In this document: in pieces, positions 29,541 through 59,183 of the stretch
How the letters are laid out: each line of letters opens with the position of its first letter
Numbering within the stretch: the first letter of the stretch is position 1
From: Renibacterium salmoninarum ATCC 33209
GTDB lineage: Bacteria > Actinomycetota > Actinomycetes > Actinomycetales > Micrococcaceae
DNA length: 64,000 bases
Assembly: GCF_000018885.1 (NCBI RefSeq)
Contig: NC_010168.1
Coordinates: 868,001-932,000 of the forward strand
Reading direction: 5' to 3'
Made by a program: the position numbers and the translations under genes
The notes under the pieces: model-generated
Seen by the model: the letters and a program-made list of their open reading frames with translations, nothing else
Databases searched by the model: none
What the model was told of the DNA's origin: nothing

Positions 29541-29618
29541 TTTCAGATAGCAAGACGACTCTGCGTTAGCAAGAAGCCCAGCTTCCTTGCTAACGCAGAG
29601 TCGTCTTGCTATCTGAAA
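29541..29618. repeat. Palindrome, family A member 1, after ilvE
   Basis: 33-bp perfect arms (29541-29573 and 29586-29618) with a 12-base loop. The arm carries GATAGCAAGACGAC, seven bases, then TAGCAAGAA. It lies 37 bp after the ilvE stop and 18 bp before the next gene. Related arms occur at 38485 and 59116. Confidence 0.9.
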
Positions 29619-29636
29619 CCGTGAAATAGTTGGCTC

Positions 29637-30407
29637 ATGCGTATAGCCCGTTTTGTTTTGGATGCTGATCCCATGTACGGCGTAGTTGATGCCGCCGGTG
29701 AAACTGTGACCGTGATCAAGGGAGATCCCTTCTTCAACGGCGTAGAGCCAACAGGGGAGACCCACCCGTTAGAGGATGTCCGGTTGTTGGCACCCATCAT
29801 TCCGCGCTCCAAAGTTGTTGGCATTGGTCGGAATTATGCTGAGCATGCCAAGGAATTGGGCAACGAAGTACCGGCCAGCCCACTCATGTTCCTCAAGCCA
29901 AATACCTCGGTGATTGGGCACAACGATCCGATTGCGCTGCCGGAATTCTCCGAAGAGGTCTCCTACGAGGCTGAGCTCTGCATCGTGATTGGCCGCATTT
30001 GCAAGGACGTGCCTGAGGACCGCGTGGACGAAGTGATCTTTGGCTACACCTGTGGCAATGACTTGACTGCGCGCGATGCGCAACGCAAGGACAACCAGTG
30101 GGCCCGAGCAAAGGGCTTTGATGGATCTGCTCCGCTAGGGCCGTGGATTGAAACCGAGCTCGACGTCGAAGACTTGGCTGTACAAGGCAGGCTCAACGGC
30201 AAAGTGGTCCAAGACGGTCGCACCGACCAGATGATTTGGGGCGTCAAGGCGCTGGTTTCGTATGTCTCGCAGGCATTCACGTTGTTGCCGGGCGACGTCA
30301 TCATGACCGGTACGCCGGCCGGCGTCGGCCTAGTCACTGAAGGTGACCGCTTCGAAGTTGAAATTGAGGGGATCGGTACGTTGTCCAATCTCATCGTCCG
30401 CCGATAA
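29637..30407 (+). CDS. Fumarylacetoacetate hydrolase family protein
   Basis: 256 aa. The FAH fold is shown by [16 protein letters not shown], the metal-binding acids in [28 protein letters not shown], and [15 protein letters not shown]. Members cleave or decarboxylate acylpyruvates or act as oxaloacetate decarboxylases. The substrate is not decidable. Followed by gltX after 25 bp. Confidence 0.92.
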
Positions 30408-30432
30408 TACCCAGACTAAAGCTGAGAGCATC

Positions 30433-31923
30433 ATGACTATTCCCCTTATTGACGCGGCGACTCCGGTCCGCGTCCGTTTTTGCCCGTCACCTACTGGAAC
30501 CCCGCACGTCGGCCTGATTCGCACGGCGTTGTTCAACTGGGCTTATGCTCGGCATACCGGTGGCAAGCTGGTTTTCCGCGTGGAAGATACTGATGCTGCA
30601 CGCGATAGCGAAGAGAGTTACCAGCAACTGCTCGATGCGCTGAACTGGATGGGCATTGACTGGGATGAGGGCGTAGAGGTAGGCGGCCCGCACGAACCGT
30701 ACCGTCAATCGCAGCGGAGCGAAATTTACCAGGATGTCATCGCGAAATTGCGTGACGGTGGATTCGTTTACGAATCATATTCGACACCGGATGAGATTGA
30801 GGCGCGACACAAAGCTGCCGGGCGTGACCCAAAGTTGGGCTACGACGGCTTTGATCGAGATCTTTCGGCAGAACAGATTGCTGCGTTCAAAGCAGAAGGC
30901 CGTGAAGCTGCCTTGCGGCTGCGGATGCCCGATGAAGACATCACTTTCACCGACCTGGTCCGCGGCGAAATCACCTTCAAGGCTGGCTCAGTGCCGGACT
31001 TCGCCGTAGTGCGGCCAAACGGTGCGCCGCTGTACACGCTGACGAACCCGGTAGACGACGCATTGATGGGCATTACCCACGTTTTGCGTGGCGAGGACAT
31101 CTTATCCTCCACACCGCGGCAAATAGCCCTGTACCGGGCGCTACACGCCGTGGGCGTGGCTGACTATCTGCCGGAATTCGGCCACCTGCCCTATGTCATG
31201 GGCCAGGGCAACAAGAAGCTGTCCAAACGCGATCCGGAATCTAGCTTGTTCCTGTTGCTCGAATGGGGCTTTATCAAAGAGGGTTTGCTGAATTACTTGG
31301 CGCTGCTGGGCTGGTCGCTTAGCGCGGATGAAGACATTTTCACGGTTGAGGAACTAGTCAAGGCCTTTGACGTGCACGACGTGTTGGGCAACCCGGCTCG
31401 CTTTGACGTAAAGAAGGCTGAGTCAATCAACGGAACCCATGTGCGGTTGCTTGCGCCAGAGGATTTCCGAGGCCGACTTGTGCCGTACTTGCAGGCCGCT
31501 GAGTTGGTTAGTGCGGAGCTCACCGAACGGCAGTCTGCCGTTTTGACCGAAGTTGCGCCGCTGGTCCAGGAACGGATACAGCTGTTGGCTGAAGCGCCGG
31601 CGATCTTGCGTTTCCTTTTCGTTGCGGACGACGACGTCGAACCCGCCGAAGATGCGCTGAAGGGACTGCCCGAGAATTTGGTTGAGGTGCTGGATGCGGC
31701 GATTACCGCCGTCGAGCCGTTGACTGAGTGGAACGCTGAGACCATTCAGGACGCGCTGCGTACTGCCTTGATTGATGATCTGGGCCTCAAACCACGATTG
31801 GCCTTTGGGTCGGTGCGTACCGCGATGTCTGGCCGACGGATTTCGCCGCCGCTGTTTGAATCGATGGTGATCTTGGGCAAGGAATCTTCGCTGGCTCGGT
31901 TACGCAGATTCCGAGACCGATGA
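30433..31923 (+). CDS. gltX: Glutamyl-tRNA synthetase
   Basis: 496 aa from ATG 30433. Class I motifs: [20 protein letters not shown] (HIGH variant HVGL) and [11 protein letters not shown] (KMSKS variant). It charges tRNA-Glu, and possibly tRNA-Gln for amidation. An upstream in-frame ATG at 30343 would lie inside the FAH gene and is rejected. Stop overlaps the next gene (ATGA). Confidence 0.97.
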
Positions 31924-32631
31924 CATTTGGTGCGCCCATTCGGGCAGTACTTTTTGATATTGATGACACGCTAGTTGACTGGCGTTCAGCCACGGAGCTG
32001 GCAGTGCAAGCGATTAGCTCGGAGTTTGTTCCCGACCTTTCAGCTGAGGACTGGGGAAGATTCAACGTGATTTTCCGAGTTGATTCGGCCGGGTTCTACC
32101 AGGCGTATCTTGACGGCAAATTGGGTTTCGTTGAGCAGCGAATCGCTCGGGTTCAATTGGCCTTTGCTGAAGTTGGCGGACGGCTGCCAGACGAAGTGGC
32201 GGAGCAATGGAATTCTGCCTATGGAGGCGGAGATTAATAGCCGATGGGCACCGTACGCTGATGTTTTGCCGCTACTAGATGCCTTGGATACTTTAGGGAT
32301 TCCGTACGGCGCTGTGAGCAATAATGTAGCCGATTATCAGCGTCGGAAATTGGACCTGGCTGGCTTGCAACGAATTTCCGTTTTGGTTGGCACCGACACG
32401 GTGGGCGTGCCCAAGCCGGACCCAGCGATTTTCCACGAGGGTGCCCGGCAACTTGGATTAGAGCCTGCCTTCACTTTGTATGTGGGGGACAACCTGGTGA
32501 TTGACGCCTTAGGTGCTGCGTCGGCAGGCTTGCCGTCGGTGTGGCTCAATCGGGATGGCGGCATTGATGAGCAGCGGGATGGACCGCAGATGACGAGTCT
32601 CGATGAGCTGCTTGGGCTTTTAGGCGAGTAA
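31920..32631 (+). pseudogene. HAD-superfamily hydrolase, frameshifted
   Basis: It starts in the ATGA overlap with gltX. The nucleophile motif VLFDIDDTLVDW and cap region read to EQWNSAYGG, then a stop at 32235-32237. One frame over from about 32220, AEINSRWAPYADVLPLLDAL continues with YGAVSNN, GVPKPDPAIFHEGA and YVGDNLVIDALGA to 32631. One indel in a G/A-rich stretch. Substrate unknown. Confidence 0.87.
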
Positions 32632-32743
32632 CTTATTCGCTGCCATTTCCGCTTAATAACTACAGATCTCTTGAATTAGAGATTGAGAATGGCTATTTTA
32701 AATGATATTTCCACTAAACAGTGGACTTATGGGAGGAAAAGCC

Positions 32744-32899
32744 ATGAAAAAGGTATTTGCTACTTTAGCTGTTGTCGCGGCGGTGGCTGGACTGTCGGTA
32801 GTGACAGCCAGTAGCGCTCAGGCCAAAGCGGACTTTAGCTGTGTGAACTCGGGTGCATCGGGTCAGGGCTGGTCGTACGAAATCATCCGCTGCCGATAA
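32744..32899 (+). CDS. Small secreted peptide with two cysteines, function unknown
   Basis: 51 aa. An excellent ribosome site (gggaggaaaa) precedes ATG 32744 and a strong terminator follows 11 bp after the stop, so it is a self-contained gene. Signal peptide: MKKVFATLAVVAAVAGLS to SSAQA, leaving about 24 residues (KADFSCVNSGASGQGW, then SYEIIRCR). The two Cys could form one disulfide ring of 17 residues between them. No family recognised; could be an exported antimicrobial, signal or surface peptide. Confidence 0.72.
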   Translation: MKKVFATLAVVAAVAGLSVVTASSAQAKADFSCVNSGASGQGWSYEIIRCR

Positions 32900-32910
32900 T
32901 TTACCCAAGG

Positions 32911-32946
32911 GAGGCTTCGCCGGTTTGCTCCGACGGAGCCTCTTTT
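32911..32946 (+). terminator. Intrinsic terminator of the small peptide gene
   Basis: GAGGCT pairs with AGCCTC, extended by CG/CCGG pairs across a short TTTGC loop, followed by TTTT. Confidence 0.85.
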
Positions 32947-33119
32947 GTGGGTTGGAATTTGGTTTCTGACGATCTGACTGGGTTGTTTCTGATTTGCTGC
33001 GAACACTTCACAACAGATAGCGGCGCGGTTGTGACTGGAAGGGCTGCTGAGGCTGTTATCCAGTAGCCGAGATGCGCTATGTGTTGTGGCGTGTTCGGCC
33101 ACAACGCGACAGATGATTT

Positions 33120-34036
33120 CTAGGAGATTTTTCCTCGCCTTCGCATGACGATGGAGAGGATGCAGCCGATCAAAATAATCGCGCAAATGATGATGCCGAT
33201 TAGGCCGCCCGCACCACTTGGGCTGATAAAGGTCGCCTGGGTCTTGAGCTGGTTAGCGCCCTCATCGAGCGCTTTCGCGCCGGCTATTAGTCCCTTATTC
33301 TGGTCAGGATTAGTGATGCCATCCGCTAGCTGATCAGTGCCGTCAGCAAGCTTCTTGGAACCTGGAGCTAAGCCTGGCTGCGTCGGATCAGAAGGATCCT
33401 TGTACATGCCGCTGAGTAGCTGGTTGGTGCCGTCGGCAAGCTTTTGGGTTCCTTCCTTGAGCCCGTATGGTGATTCGCTCAACGGGTCGGTTTACATGCC
33501 TTGAAGTGCTTGGGCAGTGCCATCGGCTAGGCGTCCGGAACCGTTAAGCAGGTTTTCCTGGCCGCCGTTGTCTCCGTTGATGCCGTACTTTATCTGTTCG
33601 ACGCCGCTGGCAAGGCTTGGCTTGCTGGAGGTGCCTTCGATGACTCCGGAGTAGAGCTGGTTGACGCCGGCAACTAGGCTGGGCTTTGTGGCTGTGCCTT
33701 GGATAACGCCTGCGTAAAGCTGGTTCACACCAGCTTGTAAAGCAGGGGTGCCATCAGGACGAGGACCTACAACGCAGGTCTTGAGCTGGGCGATGCCATC
33801 GACCAGGCTGGGGTTGCCGGGAGTGCTTGGCCCTGCAACGCCTGCCTGAAGCTGAGCTACGCCGTCGCGAAGACTAGGGGTCCCATCAGGTCGTGGGCCT
33901 AGGACACCTGCGTAAAGCTGTTGGACACCGGCTACAAGGCTACGTTTCCCGTCAGGTCGTGGCCCCAAAACTTTATCGTAAAGCTCTTGAACGCTCTCTT
34001 TGACACTGGGTTCTTCTTTCGTTCCGGGGCCAATAC
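33120..34036 (-). pseudogene. Tandem-repeat membrane protein (YhgE/Pip-like repeats), 5' truncated by IS copy 2
   Basis: About 300 codons remain. Roughly ten repeats of about 22 residues of the type GPRPDGTPSL, spacer, GVxQLxAGV run from the IS border (34036) to about 33250. A single TM (GLIGIIICAIILIGCILSIV) and the basic tail MRRRGK follow. One in-frame TAA at 33492..33494 replaces the Tyr seen in the next repeat (GMYKDPSDP). The start and N-terminus are gone; the region beyond the IS is ftsY, so they were deleted, not just displaced. Such repeats occur in phage-infection-protein/YhgE type surface proteins. Confidence 0.82.
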
Positions 34037-34086
34037 TGAATCGCCCCGGTGTGTCCGGAGACTTTCTTGTTTGAGAGGATCAGGAC

Positions 34087-34452
34087 ATGGCAGGGAAAAC
34101 TACGACACGGTATCCGCAGGAGTTGAAGGATCATACGGTGCGCATGGTGGCGGAGATGGAGGGTGCGTCTTCGGAGTGGGCGGCGATGCAAAAAGTTGCC
34201 CAGCTTTTGGGTGTGGGTGTGCCGGAAACGGTGCGTAAATGGGTCCGGCAAGCCGAGATCGATGTTGGTACTAGAACTGGAACAACGAGCACGGAATCGG
34301 CCGAGCTGAAACGGTTACGGCGTGAGAACGCTGAGCTGAAACGGGCGAACGCGATCCTTCGGAGTGCTTCAGCTTTTTTCGCGGTCGAACTCGACCGCCA
34401 CAACACTGATCGTGAAATACATCAAGGACCATGCCGGTCACCGCGAGAATAA
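34087..34452 (+). CDS. IS994-like orfA
   Basis: 121 aa, same protein as in copy 1; HTH then leucine-zipper-like helix. Starts 50 bp inside the left end. Frame closes at TAA 34450-34452. The expected N-terminal part of OrfB (IKDHAGHRENNGLRWGVES) lies in the +1 frame over its end. Confidence 0.92.
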   Translation: MAGKTTTRYPQELKDHTVRMVAEMEGASSEWAAMQKVAQLLGVGVPETVRKWVRQAEIDVGTRTGTTSTESAELKRLRRENAELKRANAILRSASAFFAVELDRHNTDREIHQGPCRSPRE

Positions 34453-34461
34453 TGGATTGCG

Positions 34462-35352
34462 GTGGGGTGTCGAGTCGATCTGCCAGGTGCTTACTGGGAC
34501 GGGGTGAAGACCACCCCGTCCACGTACTACGAATGGGTGGATAAAACACGATCTCACCGAGAACAACGTGATGAGGTGCTCAAGCCCGTGATCCAGAAGG
34601 TGTATGCCGCTAATTACGGGGTTTACGGCACCAGGAAAGTCTGGTTGGCGATGAACCGTGAAGGTGTGCCGGTGGCCAGGTGCACGGTAGAACGGCTCAT
34701 GGGGTTACTTGGCATACAGGGTGCGGTCCGTGGCAAGGTCAAACGCACCACGATCAAAGACTCGAAGGCGGCCCGAGCGAAGGACTTGGTCCGCCGTGAT
34801 TTCACACCAACGGCACCGGATCGGCTATGGGTAGATGATTTCACCTATGTTTCGACCTGGTCCGGGTGGGTCTATGTTGCCTTCGTGATCGATGCTTACT
34901 CTCGGAGGATCCTGGGCTGGTCAGCGAGTGCTTCTATGAACACCGTGCTAGTGCTCAACGCAGTTAATCAGGCAATCTGGAGTCGTGAACGGGCCGGGGC
35001 TGAGATTTCCGGGGTGATTCATCATCACGATGCCGGGGCTCAATACGCCTCCTTGGCCTTCACCGAACGCCTGGCCCAGACCGGTATCCGCCCCTCGATC
35101 GGTTCTGTGGGTGATAGTTACGACAACGCCTTGGCGGAAACCATCAACGGGCTTTATAAGACCGAGCTGATCAAACCCGGCAAGCCCTGGCGGACTCTAG
35201 AAGAAGTCGAAATCGGCACCGCTGAATGGGCCGATTGGTACAACCACCGAAGGCTCTACCAGTACTGCGGAGACATCCCACCAGTAGAGCTAGAAAACCA
35301 CTACTACAATCACTACCAGAGCACGGCAGCCGCCGACAGGCTCATCGTCTGA
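34462..35352 (+). CDS. IS994-like orfB, DDE transposase
   Basis: 296 codons from GTG 34462. The rve integrase core has D in WVDDFTYVSTW, D in IHHHDAGAQYASL and E in YDNALAETINGLYKTE. The first 15 codons (GCRVDLPGAYWDG) do not look like IS3 OrfB. The family-like start GLRWGVESICQVLTGTG is in the other frame and ends at TGA 34505-34507, right after a GGGG run from which a -1 slip would enter VKTTPSTYYEW. All three copies share this. Confidence 0.92.
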   Translation: MGCRVDLPGAYWDGVKTTPSTYYEWVDKTRSHREQRDEVLKPVIQKVYAANYGVYGTRKVWLAMNREGVPVARCTVERLMGLLGIQGAVRGKVKRTTIKDSKAARAKDLVRRDFTPTAPDRLWVDDFTYVSTWSGWVYVAFVIDAYSRRILGWSASASMNTVLVLNAVNQAIWSRERAGAEISGVIHHHDAGAQYASLAFTERLAQTGIRPSIGSVGDSYDNALAETINGLYKTELIKPGKPWRTLEEVEIGTAEWADWYNHRRLYQYCGDIPPVELENHYYNHYQSTAAADRLIV

Positions 35353-35421
35353 GAAACCCTCCGGACACACCGGAGCGATTCACGCTGATTATCGGCGGCT
35401 GCGTTATGAGAAGCTTGGTGA

Positions 35422-36609
35422 GTGAATGACATTTGGCTTCTGATTCTGTACATCGTCGTCGGACTTGCCGTGCTTGGCAGCCTGCTGGCCGTCTTCCTCA
35501 AGACCTCGCGCAATAGGAACTCCTATAGTGCTACCAGAGACGCTAACGACCCTGCTCCCGGCGGAACGCTTACTGAAGATCGCGATGCCACTGGCGAAAG
35601 CTCGGTGCCGCCGGTCTTGGTCGAAGAATCAGACGAAGGTTTGGTTGTCTTTCCCGGCGACGGTACGGCAATCGTGGAGACGCCGGAGCCGCCAGCGGGT
35701 CGGTTACAACGTCTGCGCGCGCGTCTGTCAAAGTCAAACAATGCCCTAGGCAAGGGACTTCTCGCACTACTTTCCAGCGACAAGATTGATGAAGGCGTTT
35801 GGGAAGAGCTCGAAGAAACGCTGCTGCTTGCCGATATCGGCACACAACCTAGTCTTGAATTGGTAGAGATTTTGCGCGAACGCGTCAAGATCATGGGTAG
35901 CCGCAGCCCGCAAGAAGTTCAGGCGATGCTGCGTGAAGAACTCATCAAACTAGTTGACCCAGGCATGGATCGCTCGTTGGCTGTCAGCCGCCAAGGTGAG
36001 CTTCCCGCCATCGTGCTAGTGGTCGGCGTCAATGGCGTTGGCAAAACCACCACGGTAGGTAAGCTCGCGCGCGTGTTGGTCGCTGAGGATAAAGATGTAC
36101 TGCTCGGCGCGGCAGACACTTTCCGCGCCGCGGCTGCCGAGCAGCTGGCTACTTGGGGTGCGCGAGTAGGCGTGCCAACGGTCAAGTCCGACGTCGACGG
36201 TGCTGACCCGGCTTCGGTGGCTTTCGAAGCCGTGAAGTCTGGCATCGAGCAAGAAGTCGATGTGGTGATGATTGATACGGCTGGCCGCCTGCAAAACAAG
36301 GTCGGATTGATGGACGAGCTTGGCAAGGTCAAGCGCGTCATTGAAAAACTTGCCAATGTTGGCGAAGTGTTGCTGGTTCTGGATGCGACCACTGGTCAGA
36401 ACGGTTTGACGCAGGCAAAGGTCTTTTCTGAAGTAGTCGATATCACCGGCATTGTGCTGACCAAACTGGACGGCACTGCTAAGGGCGGCATCGTCGTGGC
36501 GATTCAAAAGAGTTTGGGCGTACCGGTCAAATTAGTTGGCCTTGGCGAAGGTGCTGACGATCTTGCCCCGTTTGATGCGGAGCAATTTGTGGACGCAATT
36601 CTGAACTGA
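35422..36609 (+). CDS. ftsY: Signal recognition particle receptor FtsY
   Basis: 395 aa from GTG 35422. An N-terminal hydrophobic anchor (LLILYIVVGLAVLGSLLAVF), an acidic linker, then the NG GTPase domain: GVNGVGKTTTVGKLA (G1), DTFRAAAAEQL, DTAGRLQNK (G3), TKLDGTAKGG (G4). It docks ribosome-SRP complexes at the membrane; its partner ffh lies at 40122. IS copy 2 ends 39 bp upstream, so the native promoter is probably gone and transcription may come from the element. Confidence 0.96.
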   Translation: MNDIWLLILYIVVGLAVLGSLLAVFLKTSRNRNSYSATRDANDPAPGGTLTEDRDATGESSVPPVLVEESDEGLVVFPGDGTAIVETPEPPAGRLQRLRARLSKSNNALGKGLLALLSSDKIDEGVWEELEETLLLADIGTQPSLELVEILRERVKIMGSRSPQEVQAMLREELIKLVDPGMDRSLAVSRQGELPAIVLVVGVNGVGKTTTVGKLARVLVAEDKDVLLGAADTFRAAAAEQLATWGARVGVPTVKSDVDGADPASVAFEAVKSGIEQEVDVVMIDTAGRLQNKVGLMDELGKVKRVIEKLANVGEVLLVLDATTGQNGLTQAKVFSEVVDITGIVLTKLDGTAKGGIVVAIQKSLGVPVKLVGLGEGADDLAPFDAEQFVDAILN

Positions 36610-36831
36610 GCCTATTTGGCAGCTCTAGACATCGAATTTACCTGTTCGAAACATCAGCGTGACGCAGCATTTACGCCCGGTTGCCCCTTGTAACCTCGCT
36701 GCAATATAGATCCCTTTTAGGTGAAACACGATTTCGCCAGACTCAAAGGCAACAGTGACGCCGCCTCCGCGCGGCGTGTTCAATCACTGACGCACTAGAT
36801 GAGAAATAATTGGGAAAGGGGCGCGGCATTC

Positions 36832-38133
36832 ATGAATGAAGGTGATACCGCTTGGGTGTTGGTTTCAGCAGCACTGGTTCTGCTCATGACGCCCGGACTG
36901 GCGTTCTTCTACGGGGGGATGACGCGGTCCAAGGGTGTACTCAACATGATGATGATGAGCTTCGGAGCAATCGCCTTAGTCGGCGTGCTCTGGGTTCTCT
37001 AAGGTTACTCGGCGGCCTTCGGCACCGACGTCGCTGGTGGCCTGCTGGGCAACCCATTCGAAAAGTTTGGGCTGAACGGCATTCTCGAAACCGGTGACGG
37101 CATGCCTTTGGTTGGCACCATTCCGGAAATTGCCTTCGTTGGTTTCCAGGCGGTGTTCGCAATCATTACGGTGGCGTTGATCTCCGGCGCAATCGCCGAC
37201 CGCGCGAAATTTGGTGCCTGGATGTTGTTCGCTGGCATCTGGGTCACGGTGGTCTACTTCCCGGTGGCGCACTGGGTCTTTGACTTCAATAAAGATGCGA
37301 ACGGGAACCCGATTGGTGGCTGGATCGGTCAGGGCCTCGGCGCAATTGACTTTGCCGGTGGTACCGCCGTTCACATCAACGCGGGTGCTGCTGCGCTTGC
37401 GCTGGCATTGGTCTTGGGCAAACGCCTTGGCTTTGGTAAGGATCCCAGCCACCGTCCGCATAACTTGCCGTTTGTGATGCTCGGCGCCGGTTTGCTCTGG
37501 TTTGGCTGGTTCGGTTTCAATGCTGGCTCGGCTCTGGCCGCCAACGGCGTTGCCGGTATTGCTTGGATTAATACCTTGGCTGCGCCGGCTGGTCTGGTGG
37601 CTATTACGCCAGCGGCAGTTGCTATCACTCCGGTCTGGTCAATCGTTCTTGGCGTGCTAGCCGGAGTAGTTTGTGCCCTAGCTGTTGGTCTGAAATACAA
37701 GCTGGGTTATGACGACTCACTTGACGTTGTTGGGGTGCACCTAGTTGGTGGCTTGCTGGGCACACTGTTTATCGGCTTTGCAGCAAACCCCGGATCGCCG
37801 GCAGGTGGCACTGGGGTGTTCTACTGCGGTGGACTTGAGCTATTGGGTAAGCAAGCCATCGGTTCCTTTGCCGTGTTGATCTACTCTTTCGTAGTCGCCT
37901 TTATCGTGGGTTGGATTATCAACAAAACCATGGGGTTCAGGGTCTCGGAAGAGCACGAAGTCAATGGCATCGATGTTTCAGTTCATGCCGAGACTGCCTA
38001 CGAATTTGGTGGCAGAGTGGGCAGCGCATTCCATCCCTTGGATGAGGCGCTCCGCCGACGGCCGGCTGAGTCCGAGTCTGTGGTGCCAACACCTGCCAAG
38101 AGCACGGACGAGAACACTAGGGTGGAAGCATGA
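36832..38133 (+). pseudogene. amtB: Ammonium transporter, single nonsense codon
   Basis: 433 codons of a standard Amt channel from ATG 36832: AWVLVSAALVLLMTPGLAFF, YGGMTRSKGVLNMMMMSFG, then LWVL and TAA (37000-37002), then GYSAAFGTDVAGG in the same frame to the end. The family has Tyr at the stop position (WVLYGYS), so TAC or TAT became TAA. The rest, including the pore region with WLLFGWFGFNAGS-like sequence, is undamaged. It overlaps glnK by four bases. Confidence 0.92.
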
Positions 38134-38468: not shown

Positions 38469-38484
38469 CCGGTACTCATTCGGT

Positions 38485-38560
38485 TTGAGATAGCGAGACG
38501 ACGTGGGGCTAGCCAGAAAACATGTTTCCTAGCTAGCCCCACGTCGTCTCGCTATCTCAA
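38485..38560. repeat. Palindrome, family A member 2, between glnK and zwf
   Basis: 28-bp perfect arms 38485-38512 and 38533-38560 (29 with the next pair). The arm holds GATAGCGAGACGAC, seven bases, then TAGCCAGAA. It separates convergent genes: 16 bp after glnK, 13 bp from the zwf stop. Confidence 0.9.
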
Positions 38561-38573
38561 TTGCGTTCCGGGC

Positions 38574-39986: not shown

Positions 39987-40121
39987 CTACCCAGCATGTC
40001 ACTTTCGCTGCCAGATTGGCAGGGATCAATCTGGCAGTTTGATCCGTTGACCTTGGTATCCTTGATAGTTGATCCACTCAAAGCTTTAGACTTCTTAGAC
40101 CTCTTCGAAAGATAACCTCTG

Positions 40122-42484: not shown

Positions 42485-42545
42485 CACTTGTGCGCAGATA
42501 AGCGGGGTGGAGCGATCCAATACCCGGCTTATCTGCACACAAGTG
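42485..42545. repeat. Palindrome, family B member 1
   Basis: 19-bp arms 42485-42503 and 42527-42545, with one G-T-type mismatch. Arm CACTTGTGCGCAGATAAGC. It lies between the convergent hydrolase and the broken DUF559-like gene. The same arm core occurs at 43518. Confidence 0.85.
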
Positions 42546-42553
42546 GCGTACAG

Positions 42554-43488
42554 TTAGTCCAGCGGGCAACCAGATCGCACGAGTGCGGCTCGAACTTTGG
42601 CCACTGCGTATGCTCCTTGTGCTTGCAAATCTGCCGCAGTCAACCTAACTATCGTCCAACCCGCGTGCTGCCAGCCGTCGTCCCTTGCGATGTCCGCTGC
42701 TAGCTGATTTCGGCTGCGGTGATGATCGCCTTCGTACTGGATCACAATTTTGTAGTTGATGTAGGCCAGGTCTGCCCAGCGGAGTGGACGGCCATCGATT
42801 TCGTCGTCGAGCGAATGATTTACCGTGGGCTCCGGTAAGCCCGCCGCAATCAAGCGCAGCCTGAGTCTACTTTCCTGTGGTGAATCCACACCGGGACGTA
42901 TCTTTGCTGCGGCAGCACGACGTAGTACGTTGGCTTTCGCCCGTACTGGTAGCAGCTCGGTGAGTTCCGCCACGCCACACAACGCTTTGCGGTGCTTGCC
43001 GAAATCCCGCGAGCGTGCGCGTACTAGAAAATCGCCAGCGACCACAAGATCTTCCTCGGTCAGAATGGTTGCTAGATCGCGCCACGTTCGCTCCGGCGTC
43101 GTAAGCCAAACTCCGCGGCGAAAGGTAATTTCGTTTCGCTCGATTCGTAGTCGATGACCGTGGACGCCCTTTCGCCGCGGTTGGGCAGCGGGCTGCCTAC
43201 GACTGATATCCAATTCCGCTCTGGCTTCGAGCCAGTAGGGCAGGGGAATCTGCCAGAGGATCGCGGCCGTGACGTGGCTTGCGAACGCTCCAGGGTTGCC
43301 GCCAGATGGCTTTGGACTAGCTCGGACAACTTCGCATCAGAGCCTTTGACTATCCGTAGCCCCCTGCTGGGGATCTCTAAATCAGCGGCGGTGCTCCGAG
43401 ACCGCGAAACGCCAAGTTCTTTTGCTTGGGCCAAGGTGAATGCGGGGCGGGGAAGTTCTTGAGGTAGCTGGTGGCGTCGCATCACCAC
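42554..43488 (-). pseudogene. DUF559-like (endonuclease-related) protein with N-terminal regulator-like region, frameshifted
   Basis: N-terminal frame from GTG 43488: RRHQLPQELPRPAFTLAQA to HLAATLERS. From about 43286 the homologous reading moves one frame (FASHVTAAILWQIPLPYWLE, RRKGVHGHRLRIERNEI, TTPERTWRDLA) and runs to 42554. The C-terminal part YINYKIVIQYEGDHHR followed by DIARDDGWQHAGWTIVRL is the PD-(D/E)XK-like DUF559/Vsr-related domain. A missing T in a TTCGCAAG context explains the break. Common in Arthrobacter as orphan genes; target unknown. Confidence 0.78.
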
Positions 43489-43517
43489 AGTTTACCGCCG
43501 AAGCCCGACGCTATCGG

Positions 43518-43580
43518 TCACTTGTGCGCAGCTGAGCCGGGTTCTGTGGATAAACATCCGACTCAACTGCGCACAAGTGA
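43518..43580. repeat. Palindrome, family B member 2
   Basis: 19-bp arms 43518-43536 and 43562-43580, one G-T-type mismatch. Arm TCACTTGTGCGCAGCTGAG. It ends 2 bp from the thiC stop and lies 29 bp before the start of the DUF559-like gene. Confidence 0.85.
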
Positions 43581-43582: not shown

Positions 43583-45427
<1,845 letters not shown>

Positions 45428-45487
45428 TGCTCCGAGGTTAGCAGACTGAACACCAAGAACTCTGATCCGCAAGGCTAGGCTGGTGCT

Positions 45488-47156: not shown

Positions 47157-47160
47157 TTTG

Positions 47161-48832: not shown

Positions 48833-49052
48833 ATTGGTCCTCACTAGTGTTCATGTGGCAGAATTAGTACTTGTGTTTGCTGGGTTCTTCCTACCACAGG
48901 GGGATAGTGCCCACAAAGCGAACGCTCCGGTCGGGCCGTCCCGTGCTCAGACCGGCTAAACAATGCTCCGGAAGCGAAGTTTTTGACTTGTCTCGACTTT
49001 GACTGCCGTCATCAAAAGTGAATGACCTGTGGCGTTCGCCAGGAGTTGCAGA

Positions 49053-49415: not shown

Positions 49416-49430
49416 TCGGCGGATTTTCGT

Positions 49431-51020: not shown

Positions 51021-51074
51021 CCGGTACCGAAATCTGAATCAATCGCTCCGACGCTAGCCTTTGAGCGGTCGCTG

Positions 51075-51728: not shown

Positions 51729-51735
51729 TGGTTGA

Positions 51736-52074
51736 ATGAGCGCCGAGGATCTTGAAAACTACGAAACCGATATGGAATTACAGCTCTATCGGGAGTATCG
51801 CGATGTAGTTGGTTTATTTACCTATGTGGTCGAAACGGAGCGAAGGTTTTACTTGGCGAACCACGTCGATCTACAGGCAAGATCTGCAGACGGTGAAGTG
51901 TATTTCGATCTAACTTTGCAAGATGCCTGGGTTTGGGACGTCTATCGATCGGCTCGATTCGTCAAAAATGTTCGAGTCATTACCTTCAAAGATGTCAACG
52001 TTGAAGAGCTTGCCAAAAGCGATGATTTGGAATTGCTCAAAGCCTCCGATCTTGGCAACGATCTAGGGAATTGA
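51736..52074 (+). CDS. DUF2469 family protein
   Basis: 112 aa, actinobacterial family of unknown function that almost always follows rnhB. MSAEDLENYETDMELQLYRE, then VVETERRFYLANHVDL and DAWVWDVYRSARFVKNVRV. Acidic, no signal peptide or TM. Ends just before a pair of terminator hairpins. Confidence 0.93.
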   Translation: MSAEDLENYETDMELQLYREYRDVVGLFTYVVETERRFYLANHVDLQARSADGEVYFDLTLQDAWVWDVYRSARFVKNVRVITFKDVNVEELAKSDDLELLKASDLGNDLGN

Positions 52075-52093
52075 GCTAAATCCCCGCCAATGA

Positions 52094-52146
52094 GAACCCC
52101 GAAGCCGTAGCTCCGGGGTTCTGAAGATGCGTTCAACGCATCTTCA
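52094..52146. terminator. Two tandem hairpins after DUF2469
   Basis: First: GAGAACCCCG with CCGGGGTTCT-type pairing (52094-52121). Second: TGAAGATGCGT with ACGCATCTTCA, loop TCA (52122-52146), directly adjacent. Ends the rnhB transcript; two consecutive strong stems without a clear T run. Confidence 0.75.
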
Positions 52147-52326
52147 GGCTAGCAGGAATTAAACATATGCGACAGACTGTTTCCATTATTTGTTGAACTT
52201 TCAGTTGCTGCGGCAATCGAAGCAACTTCCCCTCCACAGGTAGTGAATCTGCTGCAGTTTTCCACATTCGTTGGCCCACGCTCCTTTTTGCCATTCCTCG
52301 GTAGTTTTGTCTTGGATGCTTGGCAG

Positions 52327-52683
52327 ATGAGAACGAAAATAGAGCTTGGTAAGCTTGGCGAGAACCTTGCCGCGGACTTCCTTGAACGCAGAGGGTTTCG
52401 AATTGTTGATACCAACTGGCGTTGTCCCAGCGGCGAAATAGACCTAGTTGCATTCGACGGCGAATTCTTGGTGATAGCTGAGGTCAAAGCGCGGCGGAGC
52501 TTGCGTTACGGGCATCCCTTTGAAGCGATTACTGATGCGAAGTTGCGTCGGTTGCGAACTTTGGCAGTGCTGTGGGCTAGGCATCACGGATTTTTCTCGT
52601 CGCCCATCAGGATAGATGCTGTTGCGGTACTGATCCCTCAAGGCGAAGAGCCTCGTCTGGAGCATCTTAGAGGTCTCGGATGA
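52327..52683 (+). CDS. YraN/UPF0102 family endonuclease-like protein
   Basis: 118 aa from ATG 52327. PD-(D/E)XK core: LGENLAADFLERRGFRIVD, then CPSGEIDLVAFDG and LVIAEVKARRS (D, E-x-K). Widely conserved next to rnhB and comM; may act in recombination or repair. Stop overlaps comM. Confidence 0.93.
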   Translation: MRTKIELGKLGENLAADFLERRGFRIVDTNWRCPSGEIDLVAFDGEFLVIAEVKARRSLRYGHPFEAITDAKLRRLRTLAVLWARHHGFFSSPIRIDAVAVLIPQGEEPRLEHLRGLG

Positions 52684-54214
52684 CGCTGGGGCGCTCGTTT
52701 TCAGTAGCTTTGGTCGGACTCCGAGGTCACATCGTTGAGGTCGAAGCAGATATCGGGCAGATGTTGCCTAATTTCCAGCTTTTGGGTTTGCCTGATGCCT
52801 CATTAGTTGAGGCGAAGGAACGAATTCGTGCGGCGGCACATAATTCCGGAATTCCTCTGAGTCGGCGGAAAATCACCGTGAATCTTTTGCCGGCATCGTT
52901 GCCCAAAAGAGGCAGTACTTTTGATCTGGCCATCGTAATGGCCGCACTGCGAGCGGCAAACGATGTGCGTGACCCGGGTCGAACGGTGTTTTTGGCTGAA
53001 CTAGGTCTCGACGGACGGCTCCGCCCCGTTCGCGGAATACTTCCTTCCGTGGTTGCAGCGGTCAAAGCAGGGTACGAGCAATTCGTGGTGGCGCCCGGCA
53101 ATGTGCGCGAAGCGCAGCTGGTGCCTGGGGCAAGTGTCCAAGGATTCGATTCCTTGGCGCATGTGGCCTTGAGCTTCGGGGCGAATGCCACGGAATTAGT
53201 CCTCCAAGATTGGCCAAGTTTTGACGAAACAGTGCCAAATATTGAGAGTGCTAAGGAACTAGATTTGGCTGATGTAGCAGGGCAGCCGGGGGCGAGGGCA
53301 GGCCTCGAAGTCGCGGCAGCTGGCAGGCACCATCTGCTTCTTGTCGGCCCGCCGGGTGCTGGAAAGACGATGCTGGCTGAACGGCTACCTGGCATACTTC
53401 CAGATCTTGATGATGGCCAAGCGATGGAAGTAACTGCCATTCATTCGATTGATGGATTGGCGGGTGGGCGAACCGAACTTATTCGCAGACCTCCGTTTGA
53501 ATGCCCTCACCATACGGCGAGCACTGCGTCAATTATTGGCGGCGGCTCGGGCATGCCGCGCCCCGGTGCGGCGTCGCGAGCGCATCGGGGCGTGCTTTTT
53601 TAGACGAGGCGCCAGAATACGAACGTCGGGTCCTAGATGCGTTGCGTCAGCCGTTAGAAAGCGGGGAGCTCGTCATTCACCGTTCCGCCGGGGTGGCAAC
53701 CTACCCGGCACGATTTCAGCTTGTTCTTGCCGCTAATCCTTGTCCTTGCGGGAATGCTAGCGGAAAGGGTCTGGAGTGTAGCTGCACACCAATTGCTCGC
53801 CGAAGATATTTCGGCAGACTCTCAGGGCCGCTTTTGGACCGGGTTGATATTCAAATGAACGTCAACAGACTTTCTCTGGCTCAACTATCTTCACAGACCG
53901 GCGGAGAGCCAAGTGCTGCGGCCGCGGGCAGGGTGCTTGCTGCTCGGGAGCGAGCCATCCGGCGGCTTTCGGCCTTCGAGCTAAAGTTCAATGCCGAGGT
54001 CTCAGGCCGAATCCTAAGGGGCCCGCTGAGATTGACTGAGTCGAGCACCCGAACTATTGATTTTGCGCTTGAACGAGGGAGCTTGACGGCACGTGGTTAT
54101 GACCGGGTGCTTCGAATCTCGTGGACCTTGGCAGATCTGGCTGACCTCGATCGTCCGGGAACAGATCAGATTGGCCAAGCTTTAGAGATGCGAAATCAAG
54201 GCGCAGCTCGATGA
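52680..54214 (+). pseudogene. comM: ComM/YifB-like AAA+ (Mg-chelatase-like), frameshifted in a T run
   Basis: N-terminal LonC-like domain (VGLRGHIVEVEADIGQMLP), Walker A LLVGPPGAGKTMLAERLPG, then AHRGVLF and TAG at 53601-53603. One extra T in the six-T run would give GVLFLDEAPEYERRVLDAL, the Walker B that now lies one frame over and continues (ANPCPCGNASGKG) to 54214. ComM is a hexameric helicase for branch migration of incoming DNA in natural transformation. ATGA overlaps with both neighbours remain. Confidence 0.9.
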
Positions 54215-54394
54215 CCCGGGCTGATTCACGACTGGCACGAGCAGCGCTGAGCCGCATTATGGAGCCGTCTGATCTGCACGGATTAGCAGTCATTCGGGTG
54301 CTTGGTCCTTGGGAAAGTATGCGCATCATCAGCGGAAATGCTCAGCTGCTCTCCGCGCAGGAAGTGAATCGCTCCGGTGTGTCCGGAGGGTTTC

Positions 54395-55285
54395 TCAGAC
54401 GATGAGCCTGTCGGCGGCTGCCGTGCTCTGGTAGTGATTGTAGTAGTGGTTTTCTAGCTCTACTGGTGGGATGTCTCCGCAGTACTGGTAGAGCCTTCGG
54501 TGGTTGTACCAATCGGCCCATTCAGCGGTGCCGATTTCGACTTCTTCTAGAGTCCGCCAGGGCTTGCCGGGTTTGATCAGCTCGGTCTTATAAAGCCCGT
54601 TGATGGTTTCCGCCAAGACGTTGTCGTAACTATCACCCACAGAACCGATCGAGGGGCGGATACCGGCCTGGGCCAGGCGTTCGGTGAAGGCCAAGGAGGC
54701 GTATTGAGCCCCGGCATCGTGATGATGAATCACCCCGGAAATCTCAGCCCCGGCCCGTTCACGACTCCAGATTGCCTGATTAACTGCGTTGAGCACTAGC
54801 ACGGTGTTCATAGAAGCACTCGCTGACCAGCCCAGGATCCTCCGAGAGTAAGCATCGATCACGAAGGCAACATAGACCCACCCGGACCAGGTCGAAACAT
54901 AGGTGAAATCATCTACCCATAGCCGATCCGGTGCCGTTGGTGTGAAATCACGGCGGACCAAGTCCTTCGCTCGGGCTGCCTTCGAGTCTTTGATCGTGGT
55001 GCGTTTGACCTTGCCACGGACCGCACCCTGTATGCCAAGTAACCCCATGAGCCGTTCTACCGTGCACCTGGCCACCGGCACACCTTCACGGTTCATCGCC
55101 AACCAGACTTTCCTGGTGCCGTAAACCCCGTAATTAGCGGCATACACCTTCTGGATCACGGGCTTGAGCACCTCATCACGTTGTTCTCGGTGAGATCGTG
55201 TTTTATCCACCCATTCGTAGTACGTGGACGGGGTGGTCTTCACCCCGTCCCAGTAAGCACCTGGCAGATCGACTCGACACCCCAC
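54395..55285 (-). CDS. IS994-like orfB, DDE transposase
   Basis: 296 codons, DDE residues in WVDDFTY, HHHDAGAQY and the Glu of LAETINGLYKTE. Two substitutions against copy 2 (ERLAQAG, YDNVLAE). The second, Ala to Val four residues from the catalytic Glu, might affect activity. Confidence 0.92.
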   Translation of the reverse strand: MGCRVDLPGAYWDGVKTTPSTYYEWVDKTRSHREQRDEVLKPVIQKVYAANYGVYGTRKVWLAMNREGVPVARCTVERLMGLLGIQGAVRGKVKRTTIKDSKAARAKDLVRRDFTPTAPDRLWVDDFTYVSTWSGWVYVAFVIDAYSRRILGWSASASMNTVLVLNAVNQAIWSRERAGAEISGVIHHHDAGAQYASLAFTERLAQAGIRPSIGSVGDSYDNVLAETINGLYKTELIKPGKPWRTLEEVEIGTAEWADWYNHRRLYQYCGDIPPVELENHYYNHYQSTAAADRLIV

Positions 55286-55294
55286 CGCAATCCA

Positions 55295-55660
55295 TTATTC
55301 TCGCGGTGACCGGCATGGTCCTTGATGTATTTCACGATCAGTGTTGTGGCGGTCGAGTTCGACCGCGAAAAAAGCTGAAGCACTCCGAAGGATCGCGTTC
55401 GCCCGTTTCAGCTCAGCGTTCTCACGCCGTAACCGTTTCAGCTCGGCCGATTCCGTGCTCGTTGTTCCAGTTCTAGTACCAACATCGATCTCGGCTTGCC
55501 GGACCCATTTACGCACCGTTTCCGGCACACCCACACCCAAAAGCTGGGCAACTTTTTGCATCGCCGCCCACTCCGAAGACGCACCCTCCATCTCCGCCAC
55601 CATGCGCACCGTACGATCCTTCAACTCCTGCGGATACCGTGTCGTAGTTTTCCCTGCCAT
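55295..55660 (-). CDS. IS994-like orfA
   Basis: 121 aa, HTH and leucine-zipper-like helix; one change from copies 1 and 2 (ELKDRTVRM). Confidence 0.92.
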   Translation of the reverse strand: MAGKTTTRYPQELKDRTVRMVAEMEGASSEWAAMQKVAQLLGVGVPETVRKWVRQAEIDVGTRTGTTSTESAELKRLRRENAELKRANAILRSASAFFAVELDRHNTDREIHQGPCRSPRE

Positions 55661-56788
55661 GTCCTGATCCTCTCAAACAAGAAAGTCTCCGGACACGCCG
55701 GGGCGATTCAACCTGAGCGCCGAGTCCGGTGCCGTTTGGAAGGGCATCGACGATTGCTTGAAACGCTGGAGTCCGAGGCTTCCGCAAGTCGCCGCTGAAC
55801 GTGATCTGACTACCATGGCCTCGATAGGGGGCGGCCTGCTAATCCCTGAAGATGCCGCTTGGCCGGCAGGATTGAAGGATCTCGGGCTGGCAGCACCTAT
55901 CGGTTTGTGGTTTCGCGGTACATCGGGACTGCCAGCATTATCGGATTGTGTGGCTGTGGTGGGTTCGCGAGACAGTACTGCCTACGGGAATGCCGTTGTG
56001 GCAGACATCGCACATGGACTAGCCGTAAGGCGGAAAACAGTGCTTTCAGGCGGTGCTTATGGCATCGATGCTGCCGCAAACCGGGCTGCCCTTACGGCGA
56101 AATCAGCCGAAAGCGTCGCGACGATTGCGGTGATGGCCGGTGGGCTTGACCGCTTCTATCCGGCCGGGAACGAGCTCCTTTTGCGTGAAATATCGCAAAG
56201 TGGGCTTCTTCTGGCCGAAGTTCCGCCCGGCTGTAATCCGACGAGGTATCGCTTTTTGCAGCGGAATCGACTTATCGCGGCGTTGAGCTCGGCTACCGTG
56301 GTTGTCGAAGCGCGATGGCGTTCCGGCGCATTGAATACTGCTCATCATGCCGCGGAGATGGGACGTCATGTTGCCGCAGTACCGGGTTCGGTTTATTCAG
56401 CGAATTCGGCTGGTTGTCATCGATTGTTGCGCGAAGGCGCGGCTGTATGCGTTTCGGATGCTGCTGAAATCTGTGAGCTCATTTCACCTAGCGGTGTTTT
56501 GTCACCGATGCATATTCCAGATCGTGCTGAACACGACGGGCTACCCGCCGAGGATTTGCTGCTTTTAGATGCTTTGCCAGTCCGCAGGGGGAGCAGTGTG
56601 GAAAAACTTGCCGGTGTTGCCGGGCTTGATGAAGCTTCTGTTCGAGCTGGCTTGGGCCGGCTCGAACTTTTGGAGCTTGCCAAACGGTCGGAGAACGGCT
56701 GGTTGCGGCGCAGACCGAGTTCAACCTGAGCCGTGAAAAAAGCCGAGCCGACCGGGATCTTGTCCGAGAGGGCGAGGAGTTCTAATGT

Positions 56789-57394
56789 TTGCGCATGGGT
56801 AAGTTGATTTTGACAATGCACACTAGCGCGGATGGCTTCGTGGCAACTGGGGACGGGAAAATGTGGCCGACTTTCGGTTGGCCTGCCGAAGCACAGAGCT
56901 TGGTCAACGAGCTGTATGCAGATGTCGAAGCTGCTATTTATGGTCGAGGAATCTATCAGACGGTCATTCCGTTTTGGACCGACGTCGCGATTAACGGTGT
57001 GCCTCATGGCGCGCCGTTAGGCGAGTTCGATCTGGATTTTGCAAGGCTGCTTTTGCCCGTTCGAAAATACGTAGTTTCTAGAACCTACGAGCCGCAAGAA
57101 CCAGATACAACAGCGATTCGAGCTAACATCGCCACCGAAGTCGAACGAATTAAGGCAGGGACGTCCGGTGCTGTAGTTCTGCTAGCTGGCGGCGCAATTA
57201 CCGCTGAGCTTCTCAAAGCCAAATTGATCGATGAGATTCTTCTACTGACCGGACCGGTACTCCTCGGCAGTGGAAGACCCTTGGCTGACCTATCCGAGCC
57301 GATCCCGCTGAGCTTGTTGAGCGTTGACACCTTTGCCCCGAAATGTGTGGTTTCGAGATATCGCATCGAAGCGGATTTTCCAACGCAGCGCTAA
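56789..57394 (+). CDS. Dihydrofolate reductase family (RibD C-terminal domain) protein
   Basis: 201 aa from TTG 56789 with gaggag nine bases upstream; ATG 56795 is an alternative. MHTSADGFVATGDGKMW, then EAAIYGRGIYQTVIPFW, VVLLAGGAITAELLKAKLID and LTGPVLLGSGRPL are the DHFR/RibD-C fold landmarks. Likely an NADPH-dependent reductase; substrate unknown. Confidence 0.88.
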   Translation: MRMGKLILTMHTSADGFVATGDGKMWPTFGWPAEAQSLVNELYADVEAAIYGRGIYQTVIPFWTDVAINGVPHGAPLGEFDLDFARLLLPVRKYVVSRTYEPQEPDTTAIRANIATEVERIKAGTSGAVVLLAGGAITAELLKAKLIDEILLLTGPVLLGSGRPLADLSEPIPLSLLSVDTFAPKCVVSRYRIEADFPTQR

Positions 57395-57470
57395 CAATCG
57401 GAACAACTCATGCTTAGCTCTTGCGGCGATGCGGCTTGAATGAATGCGTTTCAGCGCGCAGAGTATGTGA

Positions 57471-58397
57471 GTGAACGAGTCCGAACTACCCGTTGAATTC
57501 AATCGAATTCTCTCTGCGTTCAATCAGCACTTGCGCGCCGAGCGTGCTCGGTCAGAGCACACAATCCGGGCCTATTCGGCAGATGTAGAAAGCTTGATGT
57601 ACTACGCGATTGCCGCCGGCGTTCGGTCAATAGATGAGATCGACTTAGCCACTATCCGAGAGTGGCTAGGCGAGCAAAGTTCAGATGGCTTAGCCCGTTC
57701 AACTCTCGCACGTCGCGCAGCAAGTACTCGGACGCTGATGTCCTGGGCGCTTCGCGAGGAATTAATATCCGTAGATCCCACGCTACGACTCAAAGCGCCA
57801 AAGCGGCAGAAGACGCTGCCGGGAGTTTTGCAGCAGAATCAGATGGCTCGTATGCTCGCTGATTTAGCATCAGCGGCTGAAGAAGGATCGGCAGCTGCAT
57901 TGCGGGACCTAGCCATTGTCGAGTTACTTTACGCGGCAGGATTGCGTGTGGGCGAATTGGCTGGACTTGATCTTGACGATCTCGATTTCGAACGCCGAAC
58001 AGTCGTAGTGCTTGGTAAAGGAAATAAAGAGCGGAGCGTGCCTTTTGGTCAGCCCGCGGCTAGAGCGCTTCAGGCTTGGCTCCAAACTGGTCGACCGGCG
58101 TTTTATCGTGAGGGAAGCGGCGCTGCACTTTTTTTAGGCACCCGTGGCGGTCGGATCGATCAACGGCAGATCAGATCCGTCGTTGGAAGCCGTTTTGTGG
58201 CTTTGGGAGATACTTCTGCGACAAGTCCGCACGCCCTGCGACACACTGCAGCAACTCATTTGCTCGACGGCGGCGCAGATTTGCGCGCGGTACAAGAGAT
58301 TCTGGGCCACTCGTCGCTGGCAACGACTCAAATCTATACTCATGTCTCGGTCGATCGTCTTCGGTCGAGCTATCAGCAAGCGCATCCGCGAGCCTAA
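57471..58397 (+). CDS. xerC: Tyrosine recombinase XerC
   Basis: 308 aa from GTG 57471. SAM-like N-terminal DNA-binding domain, then catalytic Arg in AAGLRVGELAGLDL, Lys in LGKGNKERSVPF, HALRHTAATHLLDGGADL (H, R) and LGHSSLATTQIYTHVS (H, Tyr nucleophile). Resolves chromosome dimers with XerD. Normal neighbour of dprA. Confidence 0.95.
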   Translation: MNESELPVEFNRILSAFNQHLRAERARSEHTIRAYSADVESLMYYAIAAGVRSIDEIDLATIREWLGEQSSDGLARSTLARRAASTRTLMSWALREELISVDPTLRLKAPKRQKTLPGVLQQNQMARMLADLASAAEEGSAAALRDLAIVELLYAAGLRVGELAGLDLDDLDFERRTVVVLGKGNKERSVPFGQPAARALQAWLQTGRPAFYREGSGAALFLGTRGGRIDQRQIRSVVGSRFVALGDTSATSPHALRHTAATHLLDGGADLRAVQEILGHSSLATTQIYTHVSVDRLRSSYQQAHPRA

Positions 58398-58594
58398 GTT
58401 CCTGAGTCGTGGCGAAATCGAATTTCATTGAAGAAATTTCGTGATTGTTATTTCGCTGGCGTTATTGACTTAGATGCGGCACAATTGCAATAGATCCAAA
58501 CATGGGCAACTGTCTAAGACAGCGTTGTCAATGCAAGGATGTTTCATTCTGGTAGGTCGTTGGGGAAGACGCATCTACAGCTATGGAGGATGGA

Positions 58595-59098
58595 ATGTCT
58601 GTTGTAATGGCACGTGGAGTGCTTTTCGTGCACTCTGCCCCCACTGCGTTATGCCCACATGTCGAGTGGGCCATTGGTTCGGTGCTGGATAAGCGCACCG
58701 ATCTTGAGTGGACCTCTCAACCTGCCGCCCCCGGATCATTTCGCGCAGAGCTCTCTTGGGTAGGCCCGCAAGGCACTGGCTCGCTGCTTGCTTCAGCTTT
58801 ACGTGGCTGGGCACACCTTCGCTACGAGGTCACCGAGGAGCCTAGTGCTGGCGTAGATGGTGGGCGCTGGTCCCACACTCCTGAGCTGGGCATCTTTCAC
58901 GCGGTAACCGATGTGCACGGAAACATCATGGTCTCAGAGGACCGTATTCGTTATGCCTACGAATCTGGGGCGGGCGATCCAGCTCAGGTTTATCACGAGC
59001 TTTCGCTCGCCCTCGGTGAAGCCTGGGATGAAGAGCTCGAAGCCTTCCGACATGCAGCTGAAGGCGCGCCCGTCCGCTGGCTCCACCAAGTTGGATAG
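58595..59098 (+). CDS. DUF3145 family protein
   Basis: 167 aa from ATG 58595 (ggagg upstream; ATG 58583 possible). Actinobacterial family of unknown function found next to the fab operon. ARGVLFVHSAPTALCPHVEW, then LGIFHAVTDVHGNIMVSEDR. Probably cytoplasmic. Convergent with fabF. Confidence 0.9.
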   Translation: MSVVMARGVLFVHSAPTALCPHVEWAIGSVLDKRTDLEWTSQPAAPGSFRAELSWVGPQGTGSLLASALRGWAHLRYEVTEEPSAGVDGGRWSHTPELGIFHAVTDVHGNIMVSEDRIRYAYESGAGDPAQVYHELSLALGEAWDEELEAFRHAAEGAPVRWLHQVG

Positions 59099-59115
59099 CG
59101 CCCTCATCGCTTTTA

Positions 59116-59183
59116 GATAGTAAGACGACTTGGGGATAGCCAGAAGTACTACATTCTGGCTATCCCCAAGTCGTCTTACTATC
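59116..59183. repeat. Palindrome, family A member 3, between DUF3145 gene and fabF
   Basis: 30-bp perfect arms 59116-59145 and 59154-59183, loop of eight bases. Arm: GATAGTAAGACGAC, seven bases, TAGCCAGAA. It separates convergent genes: 17 bp after the DUF3145 stop, 24 bp from the fabF stop. Confidence 0.92.

Follow-up and report, generated by a model that had tools for sequence, protein, structure and literature searches.

We analysed a 64,000-nucleotide stretch of Renibacterium salmoninarum ATCC 33209 (positions 868001–932000 of its contig; hereafter the window) that contains three long palindromes. They belong to a dispersed family, called here the GATAGC family, copies of which bracket a gene whose predicted product joins a DNA-binding region of AbiEi fold to a PD-(D/E)XK nuclease domain resembling Vsr and homing endonucleases. 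The association between gene and palindromes, and the bracketing of the predicted gene by two of them, are evident from the sequences and the search models. We consider it probable that the dispersed palindromes belong, as its non-coding copies, to a small DNA system that moves or maintains itself and includes this nuclease gene; binding, cutting and mobilisation of the palindromes by its product are what we infer. The best reading is a partnership similar to that between REP/REPIN palindromes and RAYT (REP-associated tyrosine transposase), in which an unrelated enzyme takes the place of RAYT.

A palindrome scan found the three palindromes at the positions given by the initial annotation (Table 1). 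Their arms are 33 nt and 100% complementary in copy 1, 38 nt (95%) in copy 2 and 30 nt (100%) in copy 3, and alignment of the three bore out the claim that differences on one arm are matched on the other. The genome-wide search proposed by that annotation, made on the single contig of 3,155,250 bases with a covariance model built from 20 copies, returned 29 places (58 strand hits), which lie at gene 3' ends and have compensating arms. A two-box arm pattern gave 57 strand hits versus 7 with the reversed control; 28 elements, hit on both arms, account for 56 of these, and the remaining one is a chance hit. The family in R. salmoninarum is not a product of chance. Rfam had no match to the palindromes, in agreement with the initial annotation, which knew of no named element like it.

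The element spans about 84 bp with a core of 68 bp, the plan of which is GATAGC, 13 bp, G(A/T)TAGC, a middle part and the mirror image, each arm thus carrying two boxes 19 bp apart. The internal repeat at 19 bp in window copies 1, 2 and 3 has z values of 4.8, 4.4 and 3.5. Besides R. salmoninarum (G000), the family was found in Psychromicrobium silvestre (G003; 40 places), a Renibacterium metagenome-assembled genome (MAG; G004; 29), G006 (29), G024 (8), G005 (6), G115 (5), G318 (4) and G312 (2). P. xiongbiense (G001) and G002, which together with G003 and G004 are the same-genus relatives of G000, had no GATAGC element at E 0.01 with the covariance model. A wider search found elements in at least 9 of 395 family genomes, a lower bound, as 11 candidates per genome were scored and under stricter filters. 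First-model hits in G008 (E 4e-6) and G027 (E 0.01) (L054, L055) are by eye ordinary hairpins without an inner box and were not counted. Core length is mostly 68 bp in G000, G003 and most of G005 and 67 bp in G004 and G006. G024 and three genomes of another genus have a 58-bp core, shorter in its middle than the 68-bp one by 10 bp, or one helical turn. The consensus between the boxes is genome-specific, even at orthologous sites, which we read as concerted evolution.

We compared the two arms of the copies with each other. Among the 29 G000 copies, 90.1% of 986 pair cells pair, versus 77.7% with the 3' letters shuffled, and the covariation score was 0.335 versus 0.117, with none of 500 shuffles scoring as high (shuffling and sliding served as controls). 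Arm identity was 0.919 versus 0.767 shuffled in these copies (z 13.7), 0.711 versus 0.600 in G004 (z 8.0) and 0.724 versus 0.596 in G006 (z 8.9), all 29 model places being used in each of the latter two. Between the near-identical G004 and G006, 15 of 17 well-aligned sites differ by 0–3 changes, one by 9 and one by 8 (19 pair alignments, from which the mispaired second copy of L152 and the pair L157/L175 were left out). In L091 versus L174 all three changes fall in one arm, making or breaking exact complementarity. L097 and L176 carry a 21-nt middle segment in opposite orientations (20 of 21 positions match when inverted, 15 as is), and one arm also differs at three neighbouring sites; in L156 versus L180 eight stem and loop sites differ. 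The arm and loop changes in these alignments have the look of DNA-level template switching or conversion.

Placement was analysed for the elements kept by our script, which required 17 or more of 25 arm pairs and thereby favoured complementary arms (29 of 29 in G000, 39 of 40 in G003, 20 of 29 in G004 and 21 of 29 in G006). The 134 kept elements comprise 52 in convergent, 69 in co-directional and 10 in divergent spacers, three at locus edges (left out of the context counts) and none inside genes, with genes called by our own codon-usage caller. Spacer length at the same loci predicts 20 convergent, 71 co-directional and 40 divergent (chi-square p 3e-16). A further 16 covariance-model loci had no element above the thresholds and stand outside the 134. 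Co-directional copies are nearer to the upstream stop than to the next start in 62 of 69 cases, and a stop lies within 50 bp of 91 of 121 elements. The core is overlapped by 13 of 173 gene ends; in 12 of these 13 a box provides the TAG stop, a pattern that the addition of elements to gene ends would produce. The window copies had been described as lying 13–40 bp from gene stops and never in a divergent spacer, and both points hold, with measured distances of 37 bp for copy 1, 16 and 13 bp for copy 2, and 17 and 24 bp for copy 3. The gene following copy 1, which runs in the same direction as the upstream gene, starts 18 bp away. Orthologous elements exist in G004 and G006 for copy 1 (both flanks matching; L174 and L091), copy 2 (L089 and L090) and copy 3 (L171 and L093). 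At L157 (G006) and L175 (G004) both flanking genes are shared, and the element and the near spacer differ nearly throughout (38/67 and 69/120); either the spacer was replaced or the insertions were independent.

Eight of the nine element-bearing genomes have the nuclease gene next to elements: two elements enclose it in G000, G003, G004, G006 and G115 (the second one in G004 is a weak hit of the model, E 2.1e-4), and a single element adjoins it in G024, G312 and G318. The gene occupies different loci in different genera. Its identity between G000 and G003/G004/G006 is 53–56%, whereas that of the flanking genes is 64–98%. As regards an adjacent AbiEii nucleotidyltransferase toxin gene, such as AbiE type IV toxin–antitoxin systems have, the brackets in L077, L129 and L152 leave no room for a second long open reading frame (ORF) (no AbiEii model search was made), and the flanking genes are conserved across genomes. 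Modelling predicts a Vsr-type PD-(D/E)XK fold that carries the catalytic residues, and D247, E258, G261 and K264 are invariant in the 48 homologues aligned (other ORFs were in the wrong frame, interrupted or redundant). Homing endonucleases of this Vsr type are known as EDxHD-type. A sequence-only PDB search gave nothing convincing for the bracketed protein, and Pfam and NCBIfam gave no match for the G000 protein. Its homologues have no family name or only weak Pfam AbiEi/DUF559 labels, and several have AbiEi hits in PADLOC. R. salmoninarum has at least four related genes (three homologue-search hits and a broken gene in the window). One paralogue (L377) has its own matched palindrome pair, at 3117–3172 and 4242–4305, and another (L290) has a single 90-bp palindrome (2434–2523) right after its stop.

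We then scanned for long palindromes around homologues of the protein, at 48 loci of named genomes and at 30 loci in 26 of the 39 relatives that gave hits. Palindromes stood on at least one side of 30 of the 48 loci (random placement: mean 5.2, maximum 11) and on both sides of 10 (mean 0.10, maximum 2); in a set of 71 loci, 51 had at least one and 22 had both. The two brackets of one locus share on average 48% of their 6-mers, versus 3.4% between loci (maximum 54%). The internal arm repeat recurs at 19 bp in 28 of 73 bracketing palindromes and at 20 bp in 10. Examples with two brackets include P. xiongbiense, G002, Curtobacterium, Williamsia, Nocardia ninae, Microbacterium testaceum and Micrococcales MAGs. 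G001 and G002 each carry a protein and a dispersed family of their own, with 34 pattern hits per genome, and a second R. salmoninarum family and the Nocardia ninae family gave 11 hits each; the reversed control gave none in any of the four. The arms covary in the G001, G002, second R. salmoninarum and Nocardia ninae families with z of 6.6, 7.2, 3.3 and 2.2, respectively. Three unpaired G001 loci were left out of this test: L299, at a contig end, and L307 and L316, which have lost the outer part of one arm.

A mechanism of the following kind would link the palindromes and the gene. A dimer or tetramer of the protein would probably occupy the four boxes (two per arm, 19–20 bp apart), a step made plausible by AbiEi antitoxins and Rv2827c (type IV toxin–antitoxin), which bind inverted repeats (PMC7319586). 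The palindrome, perhaps in the form of a cruciform or a single-stranded hairpin, may then be nicked or cut by the nuclease domain. Repair that copies the opposite arm or a further copy of the palindrome would keep the arms complementary, flip loops and homogenise the copies of a genome. It is possible that such copying sometimes seeds new copies at gene 3' ends, where insertion would do least harm. As with RAYTs and their REPINs, the palindrome sequence is specific to each protein lineage. Our opinion is evenly balanced on a more general proposal: that self-maintaining palindromes form a widespread, still unnamed class in actinobacteria, in which every family has a dedicated AbiEi–Vsr-like nuclease that recognises four boxes and drives arm-to-arm and copy-to-copy conversion, with each lineage rewriting its palindromes in concert with the protein and new families arising as specificity shifts. 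We found no account of such a palindrome–nuclease system in the open-access literature searched; an earlier description elsewhere is possible.

Integron attC sites have two boxes per arm, lie at gene 3' ends in arrays and conserve their fold more than their sequence. The palindromes described here would resemble them in all three features, but are dispersed. REP/REPIN sequences with RAYTs, as presented by Bertels and Rainey 2011 (PMC3116915), are likewise dispersed extragenic palindromic units with predicted hairpins, with a dedicated gene near matching palindromes and the repeat type tied to a specific enzyme. The extragenic dispersal of the 29 R. salmoninarum places and the flanking of the enzyme gene by its own repeats follow the same pattern. 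The differences are the enzyme, predicted to be an AbiEi-fold plus Vsr-like nuclease and not a Y1/HUH tyrosine transposase, and the repeat, which is one long palindrome with two boxes per arm at 19 bp and a family-specific foot. The main REP superfamilies have a GTAG/CGTC-type tag at the hairpin foot (PMC3733652), whereas the foot is GATAG here and GCGAAC, TGATGCC, CACTTG or GCACACC in other families. The suggestion of a REP-like transposase substrate in the initial annotation thus came close in pairing a mobile palindrome with a partner enzyme, and failed on the enzyme type, the bracketed gene not being RAYT-like (no search for RAYTs elsewhere in the genome was made). Relative to AbiEi and Rv2827c (PMC7319586), the protein differs in being fused to a nuclease domain, and its putative sites in being dispersed at 3' ends and not only at its own promoter. 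The C-terminal fold and the invariant D, E and K are shared with Vsr and homing endonucleases (I-Bth0305I 3r3p, Vsr 1cw0, DUF559, REase_MTES_1575; PMC3710099), from which the present case differs in its bracketing by multicopy palindromes; no intron or intein setting was seen.

Several results speak against the proposed partnership, or limit its reach. In P. silvestre (39 copies) the arms are uncompensated, with an identity of 0.744 versus 0.768 shuffled (z -2.8). We rejected a perfect stem as a universal need, as these arms are less alike than shuffled ones; the boxes are kept, and stem complementarity is not universal. By both flanks, 17 of the 29 G000 sites are common with G003, G004 or G006 (one, L074, on weak evidence), suggesting that movement is old or rare. 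The sole candidate empty site (L177 versus L376, G004/G006), which is not clean as the spacer is too diverged, gave no target duplication. G005, with six places of which three are weak, lacks a close cognate gene, and 20 of the 71 homologue loci have no palindrome at this sensitivity. Of the 73 bracketing palindromes, 11 have another repeat spacing and 24 none that is clear; the arms of the second window family (Table 1) lack the 19-bp repeat. Protein and palindrome similarity are weakly correlated (Mantel r 0.16, with 3 of 2000 permutations as high) in a k-mer test to which short GC-rich false palindromes (for example, L240) add noise. Finally, binding, cutting and movement are predictions from sequence and models. 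Two separate observations concern the same genomes. In the P. silvestre elements (L094, L102–L104, L121–L151) outer arm positions 6–7 tend to differ between the arms, position 6 being T/C or C/T in 25 of 39 and the same in 11, as if perfect symmetry were avoided. In L158 versus L375 only the right flank of the G006 element DNA aligns to the G004 stretch, and a rearrangement breakpoint may lie at the element.

Conservation of sites across species, retention of the boxes even where the stem is lost (G003), the one-turn difference between core lengths and the binding of inverted repeats by AbiEi and Rv2827c (PMC7319586) would also suit immobile palindromes that serve the host as nucleoid-organising sites, operators or decoys bound by the AbiEi/Vsr-like protein, the nuclease acting on foreign DNA. 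We think this unlikely, as the dispersed copies lie at 3' ends and not at promoters, the locus of the gene varies between genera and the gene is sometimes broken, and the palindrome sequence differs between protein lineages.

The initial annotation also listed terminators and RNA 3'-end protectors. If the palindromes were bidirectional intrinsic terminators or such protectors, their complementarity would come from selection on an RNA hairpin; the share of convergent spacers (52 of 131 placed elements), the closeness of co-directional copies to the upstream stop and the covariation of arms in G000, G004 and G006 would fit. However, a T-tract (at least six T in any 8 bases) is present in 3 of 173 gene-sense downstream flanks, and a terminator scan, which requires a T-run, flagged none of the three window copies. 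In the 69 co-directional elements, oriented by transcription, mismatches occur as G.U 103 times and as A.C 102 times (58 and 48 without G003, which supplies 99 of the 205; 12 and 7 in G000 alone). RNA-structure selection as the main cause of covariation was rejected on this equality on the sense strand; given the splits of 58/48 and 12/7, RNA may make a small contribution. Nor does a terminator account for the uncompensated arms of G003 or for the bracketed nuclease gene. Near one G000 copy, next to a gene read by eye as tuf, there is a distinct hairpin whose stem is flanked by A/T. We rejected termination as the main function on the T-tract, wobble and G003 tests, and regard this RNA-level explanation as quite improbable; termination may occur as a side effect at convergent genes. 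The wobble counts, the missing T-tracts and the arm-copying events favour DNA-level symmetry over an RNA terminator. It is very improbable that the palindromes are MITE- or REP-type debris of an unseen transposase with the nuclease gene as a passenger inserting there, because, although the copies are dispersed, extragenic, non-coding and in dozens, and the searches did not cover RAYT and IS genes genome-wide, homologues whose palindrome sequences are unrelated carry matched brackets far more often than random placement would give.

If the partnership of palindromes and AbiEi/Vsr-like nuclease is real, it would be a second, independently evolved answer to the problem, solved by REPIN/RAYT, of what lets short palindromes maintain themselves and spread across bacterial genomes. 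An enzyme class so far tied to mismatch repair, homing and toxin–antitoxin control would have been put to palindrome maintenance, and a function would be suggested for an actinobacterial protein group without a family name or with weak Pfam labels. The arm overwriting and loop inversion in near-identical genomes would be natural experiments in hairpin-driven conversion, and the families would provide a set of protein–site pairs for work on specificity.

Table 1. Palindromes and associated reading frames in the window (window coordinates).
Feature	Position	Strand	Context
GATAGC-family palindrome, copy 1	29541..29618 (core 29546-29613)	none	between co-directional aminotransferase class IV and FAA-hydrolase genes
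Outer box GATAGC of copy 1	29546..29551	+	inner box GTTAGC 19 bp further in, at 29565; both mirrored in the right arm
GATAGC-family palindrome, copy 2	38485..38560 (core 38489-38556)	none	between convergent P-II and G6PD genes
GATAGC-family palindrome, copy 3	59116..59183 (equal to core)	none	between convergent DUF3145 and ketoacyl-synthase genes
Second-family palindrome (CACTTGTGCGCAG...)	42485..42545	none	left bracket of broken unit; 6 genome copies
C-terminal piece, predicted distant relative of the AbiEi/Vsr-like protein (P0001)	42554..43213	-	between second-family palindromes; frame interrupted
Overlapping reading frame (P0002)	43072..43488	-	no Pfam hit
Second-family palindrome	43518..43580	none	right bracket of broken unit 42485-43580

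Neither the four-box layout nor the second palindrome-bracketed gene in the window was part of the initial annotation. The product of the C-terminal piece matched A7 in hhalign (probability 98.1, E 7e-14) and gave hits to PF18741 REase_MTES_1575 (E 4.7e-4) and PF04480 DUF559 (E 0.0065), both below the curated cut-offs. Judging from its position and sequence, the overlapping frame probably holds the N-terminal part of the broken gene.

Other features of the window were noted. A palindrome at 21701–21777, with 37 bp perfectly complementary and a 3-nt loop, lies between convergent ORFs; its sequence is unrelated, and it may be another such family. A quasi-palindrome at 12266–12351 contains a perfect 40-nt inner palindrome (12289–12328), outside which GGGACATAAGT is repeated. 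PMC5320689 describes a perfect palindrome of 91 bp that lies downstream of a duplicated gene in R. salmoninarum and shows a central-nucleotide difference; its reported positions match none of the 29 family places. A TPP riboswitch (68.7 bits) lies at 45322–45432 on the minus strand.

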